A stretch of 5,402 bases of DNA from an uncultured Clostridia bacterium (lineage in GTDB: Bacteria > Bacillota_A > Clostridia > Oscillospirales > Oscillospiraceae), in assembly GCA_947307505.1 (NCBI GenBank), contig CAMZJG010000087.1:1-5402 (forward strand). The letters run 5' to 3'. The position numbers and the translations under genes were made by a program. The stretch's first letter is position 1. The number at the start of each line of letters is the position of its first letter. Below the pieces are notes generated by a model that was not told the origin of the DNA, ran no database searches, and worked only from the letters and a program-made list of their open reading frames with translations. This document shows positions 1 to 3,179 of the stretch, piece by piece.

Positions 1-304
1 GGCCTTCCTTCCGCAGTTCCTCCTCCACCTTGATCTGGGTGGCGATGCCCGCGTGGTCCACCCCGGGGACCCACAGGGCGGCATAACCCTGCATCCGCTT
101 GAAGCGGATGAGGATATCTTGGAGGGTGCAGTCCATGGCATGGCCCATATGGAGCTGACCGGTCACGTTGGGAGGGGGCATGACAATGGTGAAGGGTTTC
201 TTGTCGGGGTCGCGCCTGGTGGAGAAATAACCTCCGTCCAGCCACATCTGGTAGATGGAAGTCTCCACGGCTTTGGGATCATAGGTTTTGGGCAGGTCTT
301 TCAT
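1..304 (-). CDS. valS: Valyl-tRNA synthetase, N-terminal part (runs off left edge)
   Basis: Cytoplasmic class Ia aminoacyl-tRNA synthetase that joins valine to tRNA-Val using ATP. Only the first 101 codons are present; the gene continues beyond base 1. The translation begins [14 protein letters not shown] and shows the ATP-binding HIGH-type motif as HMGH at residues 52-55 inside [14 protein letters not shown]. The family-typical stretch [12 protein letters not shown] (about residues 79-90) separates ValRS from the related Ile and Leu enzymes. The start at 302-304 is preceded by AGAGGAG about 7 nt upstream, and the N-terminus has the normal length before the HIGH motif. The gene is the only visible target of the T-box leader directly upstream, and the valine identity of that leader agrees with the product. 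The KMSKS motif, editing domain and C-terminal coiled coil lie outside the window. Confidence 0.97.
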
Positions 305-320
305 GGTAACACTCCTCTGC

Positions 321-363
321 AAAGTAAAACGCCCCGGGAACGCTTGATCGCGTTCCCGGGGCG
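321..363 (-). terminator. T-box controlled intrinsic terminator upstream of valS
   Basis: A perfect 14-bp GC-rich stem (363-350 with 343-330) with a 6-nt loop, followed on the minus strand by TTTTACTTT. Its 5' arm contains the bases that form the 3' arm of the T-box antiterminator, so it should form when tRNA-Val is fully charged. It ends 17 nt before the valS start codon. Confidence 0.95.
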
Positions 364-1342: not shown

Positions 1343-1371
1343 TTCCATACTTTGAATCGGAGGTAAGGGCA

Positions 1372-1413
1372 ATGGCGCTGTGGATGGATCGACAGCAGGG
1401 CGGACGCAGGTAG
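1372..1413 (+). CDS. glnS leader peptide with tandem Gln codons
   Basis: A 13-codon ORF, MALWMDRQQGGRR, in the 5' leader of glnS. Evidence that it is translated: GGAGGT at 1359-1364 sits 7 nt before the ATG, one of the best ribosome binding sites in the window. The ORF is in a different frame from glnS and ends at TAG 1411-1413. Codons 8 and 9 (1393-1398, CAG CAG) are both glutamine, the substrate of the enzyme encoded downstream. They lie directly before the first arm of a 9-bp RNA hairpin (1399-1407), so a ribosome waiting for Gln-tRNA would cover that arm. The peptide has no recognisable domain and probably acts only through the position of the translating ribosome, as in the trp, his and leu leaders of enteric bacteria. 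It also has three Arg codons, two of them (CGA, AGG) usually rare, which might add stalling. Function is inferred, not shown. Confidence 0.78.
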   Translation: MALWMDRQQGGRR

Positions 1414-1481
1414 CGTCTGCCGCATCGCACCTGCCCGGAAATCGTCAGTCTGCGGCATGGCTCAGGCCATGCCGGTTTTTT
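1399..1481 (+). promoter_or_regulatory. Ribosome-mediated transcription attenuator of glnS
   Basis: Four RNA segments can pair in two exclusive ways. Segment 1 (1399-1407, GGCGGACGC) pairs with segment 2 (1413-1421, GCGTCTGCC): 9 bp with one G-U and loop AGGTA. Segment 2 can instead pair, as TGCCGCA (1418-1424), with segment 3 TGCGGCA (1451-1457): 7 perfect bp. Segment 3 overlaps the left arm of the terminator (1453-1461), whose right arm, segment 4, is 1466-1474. Predicted behaviour: a ribosome stalled at the Gln codons 1393-1398 hides segment 1, so 2:3 forms and the terminator is blocked. A ribosome that reaches the stop codon covers segments 1 and 2, and an untranslated RNA forms 1:2; in both cases the terminator forms. 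This is the layout of the E. coli trp attenuator. No T-box signature is present. Pairings are read from the sequence; the mechanism is inference. Confidence 0.75.
1453..1481 (+). terminator. Intrinsic terminator (attenuator) in front of glnS
   Basis: A perfect 9-bp stem, CGGCATGGC (1453-1461) with GCCATGCCG (1466-1474), loop TCAG, then G and six T (1476-1481). It lies between the glnS promoter and the glnS start codon and ends 15 nt before the ATG, so it can only act as a regulated stop for glnS. The methyltransferase is unlikely to be its main target because a strong promoter lies between. Confidence 0.93.
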
Positions 1482-1496
1482 ATCGGGGGTCTCGCT

Positions 1497-3179
1497 ATGG
1501 ATAAAGTGGAAAGCAAGAATTTCATCGAACAGTTCATCGAAGAGGATATGGCGCCCGGCGCCCGGTGCGACGGGGTGCAGATCCACACCCGTTTCCCGCC
1601 GGAACCCAACGGGTATCTGCACATCGGTCACGCCAAGGCGCTTTGCATCGATTTCGGGTCCGCGGAGCGTTTCGGGGGCATCACCAATCTGCGGATGGAC
1701 GACACCAACCCCGCCAAGGAGGATACGGAGTACGTAGAGGCCATCCAGGAGGATATCCACTGGCTGGGCTATGACTGGGGCGACCGGTTCTATTACGGCT
1801 CGGATTATTTCCCCCAGACCTACGAATGCGCGGTGAATCTCATCAAGCAGGGTCTGGCCTATGTGTGCGAACTCTCTCCGGAGGAATTCAAGCAAAACCG
1901 GGGGGATATCGGCGTGCCCGCCGTCTCCCCCTACCGCGACCGGCCCGTGGAGGAATCGCTGGATCTGTTCCAGCGGATGAAAAACGGGGAATTTGCCGAG
2001 GGAAGCATGACCCTGCGGGCGAAGATCGACCTGAGCAGCGGCAACTTCAATATGCGGGATCCCGTGCTCTACCGGATCCGCTATGTGGAGCACCACCGGC
2101 AGGGGAACAAATGGTGCATCTATCCCATGTACGATTTTGCCCACCCCATCCAGGACGCCATCGAGGGCATCACCCATTCTCTCTGCTCCCTGGAGTATGA
2201 GGAACACCGCCCCCTGTACGACTGGGTGGTGGAGCACGCAGGCATCCCCGGCCTCAAGCCCCGCCAGATTGAGTTCGCCCGTCTGGGCATCAACTACACC
2301 GTCATGAGCAAGCGCAAGCTGCGGAAACTCGTGGAGGACGGCGTGGTCTCCGGCTGGGACGATCCCCGGATGCCCACCCTCTGCGGCCTTCGCCGCCGGG
2401 GGTATACCGCCGCCTCCATCCGGAACTTCTGCGAGCGCATCGGCGTCGCCAAGGTGGACTCCACCGTTGACTGGGCTTTCCTGGAGAGCTGTCTGCGGGA
2501 GGACCTGAACCAGTCCGCTCCCCGGGTGATGGCGGTCCTCCACCCCGTCCTTCTCACGGTGACGAACTACCCCGAAGGGCAGACCGAGGAGGTCAGCATC
2601 GAGAACAATCCCGTGCGGCCGGAAACCGGCTCCCGCAAGGTCGTCTTCTCCCGCCGTCTTTGGGTGGAGCGGGAGGACTTCGAGGAGGAGCCGCCCAAGA
2701 AATTCAACCGTCTCTACCCCGGCAACGAGGTCCGGCTGAAGGGTGCCTACGTGGTCCGCTGCACCGGCTGCGTGAAGGACCGGGACGGGCATGTGGTGGA
2801 GGTCCTGTGCGAATACGATCCGGATTCCCGGGGCGGTGATCCCGCAGACGGCCGGAAGATCCGGGGCACGATCCACTGGGTGGACTGCGCCACCGCCGTA
2901 AACGCGGAGGTCCGGCTCTATGACTACCTGTTCAACGATCCCGACCCCGACGGTCCGGGGAAAGATTTCATGGAATGCCTGAATCCCGGCAGCCTCATGG
3001 TCCTGCGGGACTGCAAGCTGGAAGCCTGCCTGGCGGACTCCCCCGTTCCGGAAAAGGGAAAATCTGCCACCGGTTATCAGTTCCTGCGCACCGGGTATTT
3101 CTGCACCGATCCGGACAGCCGCCCCGGGCATCCGGTGTTCAACCGGAGCGTCGCTCTGAAGGACAGCTACAAAAAGTAA
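1497..3179 (+). CDS. glnS: Glutaminyl-tRNA synthetase
   Basis: Cytoplasmic class Ib synthetase that attaches glutamine directly to tRNA-Gln with ATP. The 560-aa product matches the roughly 550-aa bacterial GlnRS. Visible motifs: PPEPNGYLHIGHAKA with HIGH at residues 42-45; MDDTNPAKED at 67-76; VMSKRKL at 269-275, the KMSKS-type ATP loop; then the C-terminal beta-barrel anticodon-binding domains, ending in the family-typical GYQFLRTGYFC near the C-terminus. PPEPNGYLHIGHAKA points to GlnRS, not a bacterial GluRS. The start at 1497 (MDKVESKNFIEQ) is preceded by GGGGGT 6 nt upstream and gives the usual N-terminus. The frame is open upstream to a GTG at 1380, but that would run through the leader hairpins and add an unrelated low-complexity N-terminus. 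Expression is likely controlled by the attenuator just upstream. Many Firmicutes lack GlnRS and make Gln-tRNA by amidation with GatCAB, so its presence is informative. Confidence 0.97.
   Translation: MDKVESKNFIEQFIEEDMAPGARCDGVQIHTRFPPEPNGYLHIGHAKALCIDFGSAERFGGITNLRMDDTNPAKEDTEYVEAIQEDIHWLGYDWGDRFYYGSDYFPQTYECAVNLIKQGLAYVCELSPEEFKQNRGDIGVPAVSPYRDRPVEESLDLFQRMKNGEFAEGSMTLRAKIDLSSGNFNMRDPVLYRIRYVEHHRQGNKWCIYPMYDFAHPIQDAIEGITHSLCSLEYEEHRPLYDWVVEHAGIPGLKPRQIEFARLGINYTVMSKRKLRKLVEDGVVSGWDDPRMPTLCGLRRRGYTAASIRNFCERIGVAKVDSTVDWAFLESCLREDLNQSAPRVMAVLHPVLLTVTNYPEGQTEEVSIENNPVRPETGSRKVVFSRRLWVEREDFEEEPPKKFNRLYPGNEVRLKGAYVVRCTGCVKDRDGHVVEVLCEYDPDSRGGDPADGRKIRGTIHWVDCATAVNAEVRLYDYLFNDPDPDGPGKDFMECLNPGSLMVLRDCKLEACLADSPVPEKGKSATGYQFLRTGYFCTDPDSRPGHPVFNRSVALKDSYKK

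Follow-up and report, generated by a model that had tools for sequence, protein, structure and literature searches.

A glutamine-codon leader ORF and terminator upstream of glnS: a candidate attenuator in Oscillospiraceae

The arrangement of the region in front of glnS, the gene for glutaminyl-tRNA synthetase (GlnRS), in an uncultured Clostridia bacterium of the Oscillospiraceae points to ribosome-mediated transcription attenuation that senses charged tRNA-Gln through two tandem Gln codons of a short leader ORF. Based on comparison of sequences, we estimate the probability of this reading at about 0.77. The DNA analyzed here was a stretch of 5,402 nucleotides (contig CAMZJG010000087.1, referred to as the window), in which the following elements were located on the same strand.

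1314–1342, + strand: promoter, with −35 TTGACA at 1314–1319, −10 TAATAT at 1337–1342, a 17-base spacer and TG before the −10
1359–1363, + strand: Shine-Dalgarno (SD) sequence GGAGG of the leader ORF, 8 bases 5′ of the ATG at 1372
1372–1413, + strand: leader peptide ORF, MALWMDRQQGGRR, 13 codons, ATG at 1372 and stop codon TAG at 1411–1413
1390–1398, + strand: presumed control codons CGA CAG CAG (Arg7-Gln8-Gln9) within the leader ORF, CGA at 1390–1392 and CAG CAG (codons 8–9) at 1393–1398, invariant in 9/9 leaders
1399–1421, + strand: hairpin 1:2 from folding, arms 1399–1407/1413–1421
1415–1424, + strand: region 2 of the proposed antiterminator, GTCTGCCGCA, pairing with 1451–1461
1430–1439, + strand: possible second partner of the terminator 5′ arm, CCTGCCCGGA, suggested by MFE structures
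1453–1483, + strand: intrinsic terminator, stem 1453–1461/1466–1474 plus a T-run
1497–3179, + strand: glnS, the presumed regulated gene, ATG at 1497, TIGR00440

The site at 1314–1342 is a good sigma-70-type promoter. It, the strong SD, the 13-codon ORF with CAG CAG, the hairpin and the terminator all lie where the initial annotation had placed them, and its claim that the sensed amino acid fits the regulated gene holds as well, since the Gln codons precede a gene whose product scores 693 bits against TIGR00440 (cut-off 425.8). Taken alone, the leader of the window would be suggestive only, and the fold energy of 1349–1500 is unremarkable (z = −1.27, 17 of 200 shuffles as good).

A search of 300 family genomes for the glnS protein gave a match in 298. 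Among closer relatives, P0002–P0018 except P0009, the proteins are 83–100% identical. Seven genomes were examined from the genus of G231, a genome carrying one of the best matches (98%). All seven bear the leader before glnS, with the peptides MALWMDRQQGGRRQRLPHRA (L115), MALWMDRQQGGRRLRLPHRA (L085), MTLWMDRQQGGRR (L086), MTLFCFRQQRPGVN (L087), MTLFVFRQQRPYLLK (L088), MLCFTFRQQRPAGI (L089) and MVFCAFRQQRPARI (L117, in which glnS is split across two contigs). A covariance model revealed an additional leader, with the peptide MRAMIFRQQLRRPVFPGALACRAFYAP, from a separate branch (G011, the single genome examined of its genus). In these nine leaders a short ORF with a start codon and an SD of at least GGAG lies between the promoter and glnS, and a terminator lies between the ORF and glnS (both 9/9). 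The promoter elements TTGACA and TATGnTA are present in 8/8 genus-level leaders; in the G011 leader TTGACA is kept and the −10 region differs. Thus, the search for a short ORF with clustered Gln codons plus a terminator upstream of glnS in relatives, which the initial annotation had suggested, was successful, and the outcome that it had named as contrary evidence, a terminator kept with the ORF or its Gln codons lost, was not found, all of them occurring together in the window, the seven genus genomes and G011. A glnS tree with 41 rows (leaving out L117, which is partial) places G011 beside G061, a genome without the leader, and apart from the window's genus, so that presence or absence of the leader must change twice on it. 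Either the leader is old and was lost elsewhere, or it was transferred. The closely alike terminator arms of the G011 and genus leaders would favour a common origin.

Sequence conservation within the leader ORF is concentrated on three codons. Arg-Gln-Gln occupies codons 7–9 in the window, the seven genus genomes and G011, and its bases, CGA-CAG-CAG, are identical in 9/9 leaders, whereas codons 2–6 and 10–15 compared between three lineages show a mean identity of 21–35% (single comparisons 11–47%), about the level of unrelated sequence. The Trp of the window peptide, the other possible control residue, is retained only in the window's own clade, which marks Gln as the conserved signal. Since CAG is the usual Gln codon (34/38 in the genes of the window, 75/75 in six related glnS genes), the third base of the Gln codons tells little. 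The invariance of CGA immediately 5′ of the Gln codons in 9/9 leaders was unexpected; because this codon is rare (3/103 Arg codons in the genes of the window, 4/258 in the six related glnS genes), such constancy suggests that selection acts at the level of the codon or the RNA, beyond arginine alone. The ORF, the Gln codons, the position of the hairpin and the terminator persist in relatives while the remaining leader diverges, a combination that, on comparison of these leaders, is beyond chance. We are almost certain that the leader ORF and its Gln codons are under selection.

An invariant Arg7 might also be expected if the nascent Arg-Gln-Gln itself stalled the ribosome in response to a small molecule, such as free glutamine or a ribosome-targeting drug, instead of an empty tRNA-Gln, the same terminator being avoided. 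Arg7 is indeed as invariant as both Gln residues, it lies equally far from the start codon in 9/9 leaders, the residues preceding it are mostly hydrophobic, and conserved Arg-Leu-Arg leader peptides have been linked to drug-induced stalling (accessible text of PMC8632094). However, one clade has Asp at residue 6 where the other leaders have Phe, residues 2–5 vary, the motif is Arg-Gln-Gln before glnS and not Arg-Leu-Arg before a resistance gene, and the downstream tRNA synthetase gene matches the repeated residue. We consider an arrest peptide of this kind distinctly improbable.

To what extent the arrangement is specific to these leaders was surveyed in 149 family loci (taken among the glnS matches listed, plus L115, L117 and L151) and the window; three were too short, and 147 upstream regions of at least 150 bases were examined. 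Among these matches, 23 regions have a terminator-like site, 10 have a QQ frame (two Gln codons plus a Shine-Dalgarno) and 9 have both, which are exactly the nine leaders; the other 138, again among the matches listed, include one QQ ORF without a terminator and 14 with a terminator-like site alone. That 138/147 of these listed regions do without a QQ ORF plus terminator was counted against attenuation. In a further set of 80 glnS loci on genome contigs, 78 with at least 150 bases, there were seven terminator-like sites, one QQ frame (L060) and none with both; the family genomes G001 and G002 are represented here, as L001 and L002, and further genomes may overlap. For some short pieces the glnS start was placed from ~20 aligned residues, so that a few starts may be slightly off.

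Genome-wide searches gave a similar picture. The covariance model, built from 8 leaders and run on 400 family genomes with stricter filters by which weak matches can be missed, matched 35 at E ≤ 0.1, including the seven genus genomes and G011; of the 27 others, five loci were inspected (L139–L143) and matched mainly through the terminator. A pattern of SD, ATG and codons 7–9 matched 18/400 family genomes, namely 8 leaders before glnS and 10 others, to be compared with 14 matches of the reversed control pattern. Six of the 10 lie in frames of 94–509 codons and four in frames of 14–29 codons, next to which a terminator was looked for by eye and none was seen. At the order level, 7/394 genomes matched, that is, G231, G011 and five others judged to be background. 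The 400 family and 394 order genomes yielded no other gene preceded by this leader, in a search that would miss another Arg codon or spacing. An accidental placement of a random short ORF beside an unrelated terminator would agree with the unremarkable single-sequence fold energy and with the 14 terminator-like sites lacking a QQ ORF; nevertheless, the same arrangement is present in 8 other genomes, the control bases being identical in 9/9 leaders, and the 10 non-leader matches of the pattern do not exceed its reversed control. Because of this conservation, chance is refuted for practical purposes, and we assign it a negligible probability.

Other structures were seen in front of glnS in loci without a QQ leader. 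L003 (−69 to −37) and L047 (−73 to −45) have perfect hairpins of 12–13 pairs followed by T-rich DNA, possibly another type of early terminator or a 5′ stabilizer of glnS mRNA in other Oscillospiraceae. L237 (G124) has a terminator-like 7-pair stem at −53 to −34 with the tail CTTTTTTCG, which might be a different attenuator.

The structural elements of the leader were evaluated in an alignment of the 8 genus-level leaders, G011 being left out. Hairpin 1:2 and the terminator together have 97.7% of cells paired, and their covariation score of 0.267 is higher than in all 500 column shuffles (mean 0.139), numbers that are inflated by the relatedness of the leaders. Slid registers are at most 45% paired, a comparison that in itself favours the scored structures (1:2, the terminator and 2:3 alike), as they were read off the same sequences. 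Three pairs of hairpin 1:2 are altered on both sides between two clades, so that the hairpin after the Gln codons does covary, as the initial annotation had asked of its hairpins; because the three pairs are neighbours and all divide the leaders into the same two clades, few independent events lie behind them. Two counts stay within the shuffled range: that of pairs with both sides changed (4, reached in 311 of 500 shuffles) and that of further pair types (7, reached in 468 of 500). In the terminator, 9/9 pairs are formed in 8/8 genus-level leaders, one of them changed on both sides.

Hairpin 1:2 begins in or right after the second Gln codon (poorly paired in L089), and its 5′ arm would lie beneath a ribosome held at the Gln codons. 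In terms of stability, the 1:2 region stands out from 1000 shuffles in L117 (12 as stable) and L088 (36) and weakly in L087 (61), and is no more stable than shuffles in the clade of the window (128–341 of 1000), G011 (579) and L089 (955). In one fold of the window's leader with no ribosome, the region at 1399 paired with 1430–1436, a longer rival, and not with 1413–1421, and the equivalent rival pairing was preferred over 1:2 in L086 as well. The segment CCnTGnCCGGAA, 5′ of the terminator (A2 columns ~80–91; window 1430–1440), is rather well kept in both clades, in one of which it is able to form its own small hairpin (TTCCG/CGGAA, L087).

The pairing of region 2 with the terminator 5′ arm (2:3), which would serve as the antiterminator, was less distinct. 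The duplex 1415–1424/1451–1461 has an energy of −15.5 kcal/mol, with 181 of 1000 shuffles as good, and was found in the MFE of the nascent RNA of the window with a ribosome at Gln9. Duplex energy was ordinary in all 9 leaders (1000 shuffles each), and no leader reached 5% against shuffles in the folding tests of 2:3 (best 31/300 for masked pairing and 130/1000 for duplex energy). In the alignment, 83.9% of 2:3 cells are paired versus 84.2% in shuffles, and no pair is changed on both sides; the sole test favouring 2:3 was that of slid registers, in which 52% or less were paired. Masking by a ribosome at Gln9 raised the pairing of the terminator arm in 8/9 leaders, clearly in L085 and L115 only (0.53 to 0.86 and 0.75, respectively), slightly or hardly at all in six others (window, 0.67 to 0.68), and lowered it in L087 (0.78 to 0.44). 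In 6/9 leaders the ORF stops right at the 5′ edge of region 2, whereas in L085, L115 and G011 translation would run through region 2, unlike in the trp scheme. We put even odds on 1415–1424/1451–1461 being a real antiterminator. Since CCTGCCCGGA can also pair with the terminator arm, a stalled ribosome could instead act by freeing 1430–1439. The step of which we are least sure is how hairpin 1:2 connects to the terminator. Of the alternative hairpins previously proposed, 1:2 is borne out by its conservation and covariation while the antiterminator part fares no better than shuffled sequence.

That the antiterminator is no better than chance would be expected if the ORF and terminator merely fixed a constant level of expression or reported overall translation, with no Gln-specific response. 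Such a role would make it needless to keep an invariant Gln pair at the foot of 1:2 while the remaining ORF changes, and we regard it as distinctly improbable. The parts themselves, their conservation and the constant position of the Gln pair at the base of 1:2 are features of the aligned leaders; from them we infer the steps of the attenuation model, namely that the ORF is translated, that the ribosome stalls, that an antiterminator forms and that the leader responds to Gln supply.

According to the attenuation model, a ribosome would begin the leader ORF while RNA polymerase transcribes the leader. With ample Gln-tRNA, the ribosome would clear codons 8–9 and arrive at the stop codon, and region 2 would be masked or held in 1:2, leading to formation of the terminator. 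With scarce Gln-tRNA, the ribosome would wait at CAG CAG, covering the 5′ arm of 1:2, and the freed RNA (region 2, or 1430–1439) would pair with the terminator 5′ arm; with this arm sequestered, transcription would proceed into glnS, giving these gut-type bacteria more enzyme when charged tRNA-Gln is low. GatB (TIGR00133) was found in 0/7 genus genomes by a search that was positive in 12/14 control genomes, and because of this GlnRS is probably the only source of Gln-tRNA in the genus, in which case feedback from Gln-tRNA to glnS makes sense. If true, this would be a simple loop in which the product of glnS takes away the signal that induces it.

With only two control codons, and these for a common amino acid, sensitivity may be low. 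As a tentative extension, which we think has the odds against it, CGA-CAG-CAG could act as a built-in timing module and make the leader a Gln-tRNA sensor whose signal is amplified by codon context: the rare, slowly read CGA would pace the ribosome before it reaches CAG CAG, and this pacing would let just two codons yield a usable response. In a his leader test system, CGA is slowly read and increases stalling and de-attenuation (accessible text of PMC4046918). The invariant rare codon would offer a direct way to study the tuning effect of codon context on attenuators that have few control codons.

In this class of Firmicutes, tRNA charging is usually read by T-boxes (RF00230), which control synthetase genes without a ribosome, and one lies near glnS on the opposite strand.

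354–574, − strand: T-box leader RF00230, 101.7 bits
615–587, − strand: promoter-like site on the same strand as the T-box, before the divergent valS

The first 102 residues encoded by the divergent gene behind the T-box match valine--tRNA ligase (valS). As the sole RF00230 match in the window is on the minus strand at 354–574, a T-box was rejected as the regulator of glnS there. The opposite orientation recurs: 36 scanned loci (20 + 16) gave 9 T-boxes, all on the opposite strand to glnS, and such a T-box is found in the window and 6/8 leader loci (L089 and L138 being without one in the DNA examined). Because the T-box accompanies the leader in these loci, these bacteria seem to use both a leader peptide and a T-box to read tRNA charging. 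Between the two, at ~690–1282 on the + strand, a reading frame with the motif VLDVGCG, which we take to be methyltransferase-like, shifts frame near 790, representing a frameshift or a sequencing error; its 857–1282 piece has no NCBIfam match.

Control-codon leader peptides are classical for biosynthetic operons (PMC1183508, accessible text). The leader described here shares with the enterobacterial trp/his attenuators the location of control codons at region I and, in the scheme, mutually exclusive I:II, II:III and III:IV pairings, but it precedes a synthetase gene, carries Gln codons and has a II:III equivalent that is only proposed. A close likeness is the uORFC-8-2 motif upstream of cysS in Rhodobacterales, where a tandem-Cys leader led to a proposal of attenuation (PMC8632094): in both cases a synthetase gene follows a short ORF with two tandem cognate codons and a terminator, and attenuation is proposed from comparison. 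Going by the description in that source, the two are set apart by amino acid (Cys versus Gln), host (Alphaproteobacteria versus Clostridia) and codon position (usually 14–15 versus 8–9). In Firmicutes, the accessible text of PMC2965389 describes bacilli in which hisZ and a paralogue of hisS have His leader peptides, likewise leader-peptide attenuation of synthetase-related genes, there with the T-box replaced; these differ in having a stretch of His codons, in bacilli, with no Gln. The remark in the initial annotation that Firmicutes are mostly known to use T-boxes and that leader attenuation is best known from Proteobacteria therefore needs updating.

The T-box is alike in controlling synthetase genes through tRNA charging; it differs in being ribosome-independent, and RF00230 is unmatched on the glnS strand of the window. 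As for glnS itself, a Shewanella study lists a predicted structured leader before it, labelled a tRNA synthetase leader (accessible text of PMC2659441), and neither glnS nor glutamine is mentioned in the main text of PMC4833913. The open-access literature searched gave no attenuator of glnS with Gln codons, subscription journals lying mostly outside the search. The earlier suggestion of an undescribed system accordingly stands for Gln and glnS within that literature, and does not extend to the mechanism, which is not new in kind (accessible text of PMC8632094 and PMC2965389): what is new here is the amino acid, the gene and the host group. If the attenuation reading is true, leader-peptide attenuation would extend to glutamine and glutaminyl-tRNA synthetase, in a Firmicutes class where T-boxes are the usual readers of tRNA charging.
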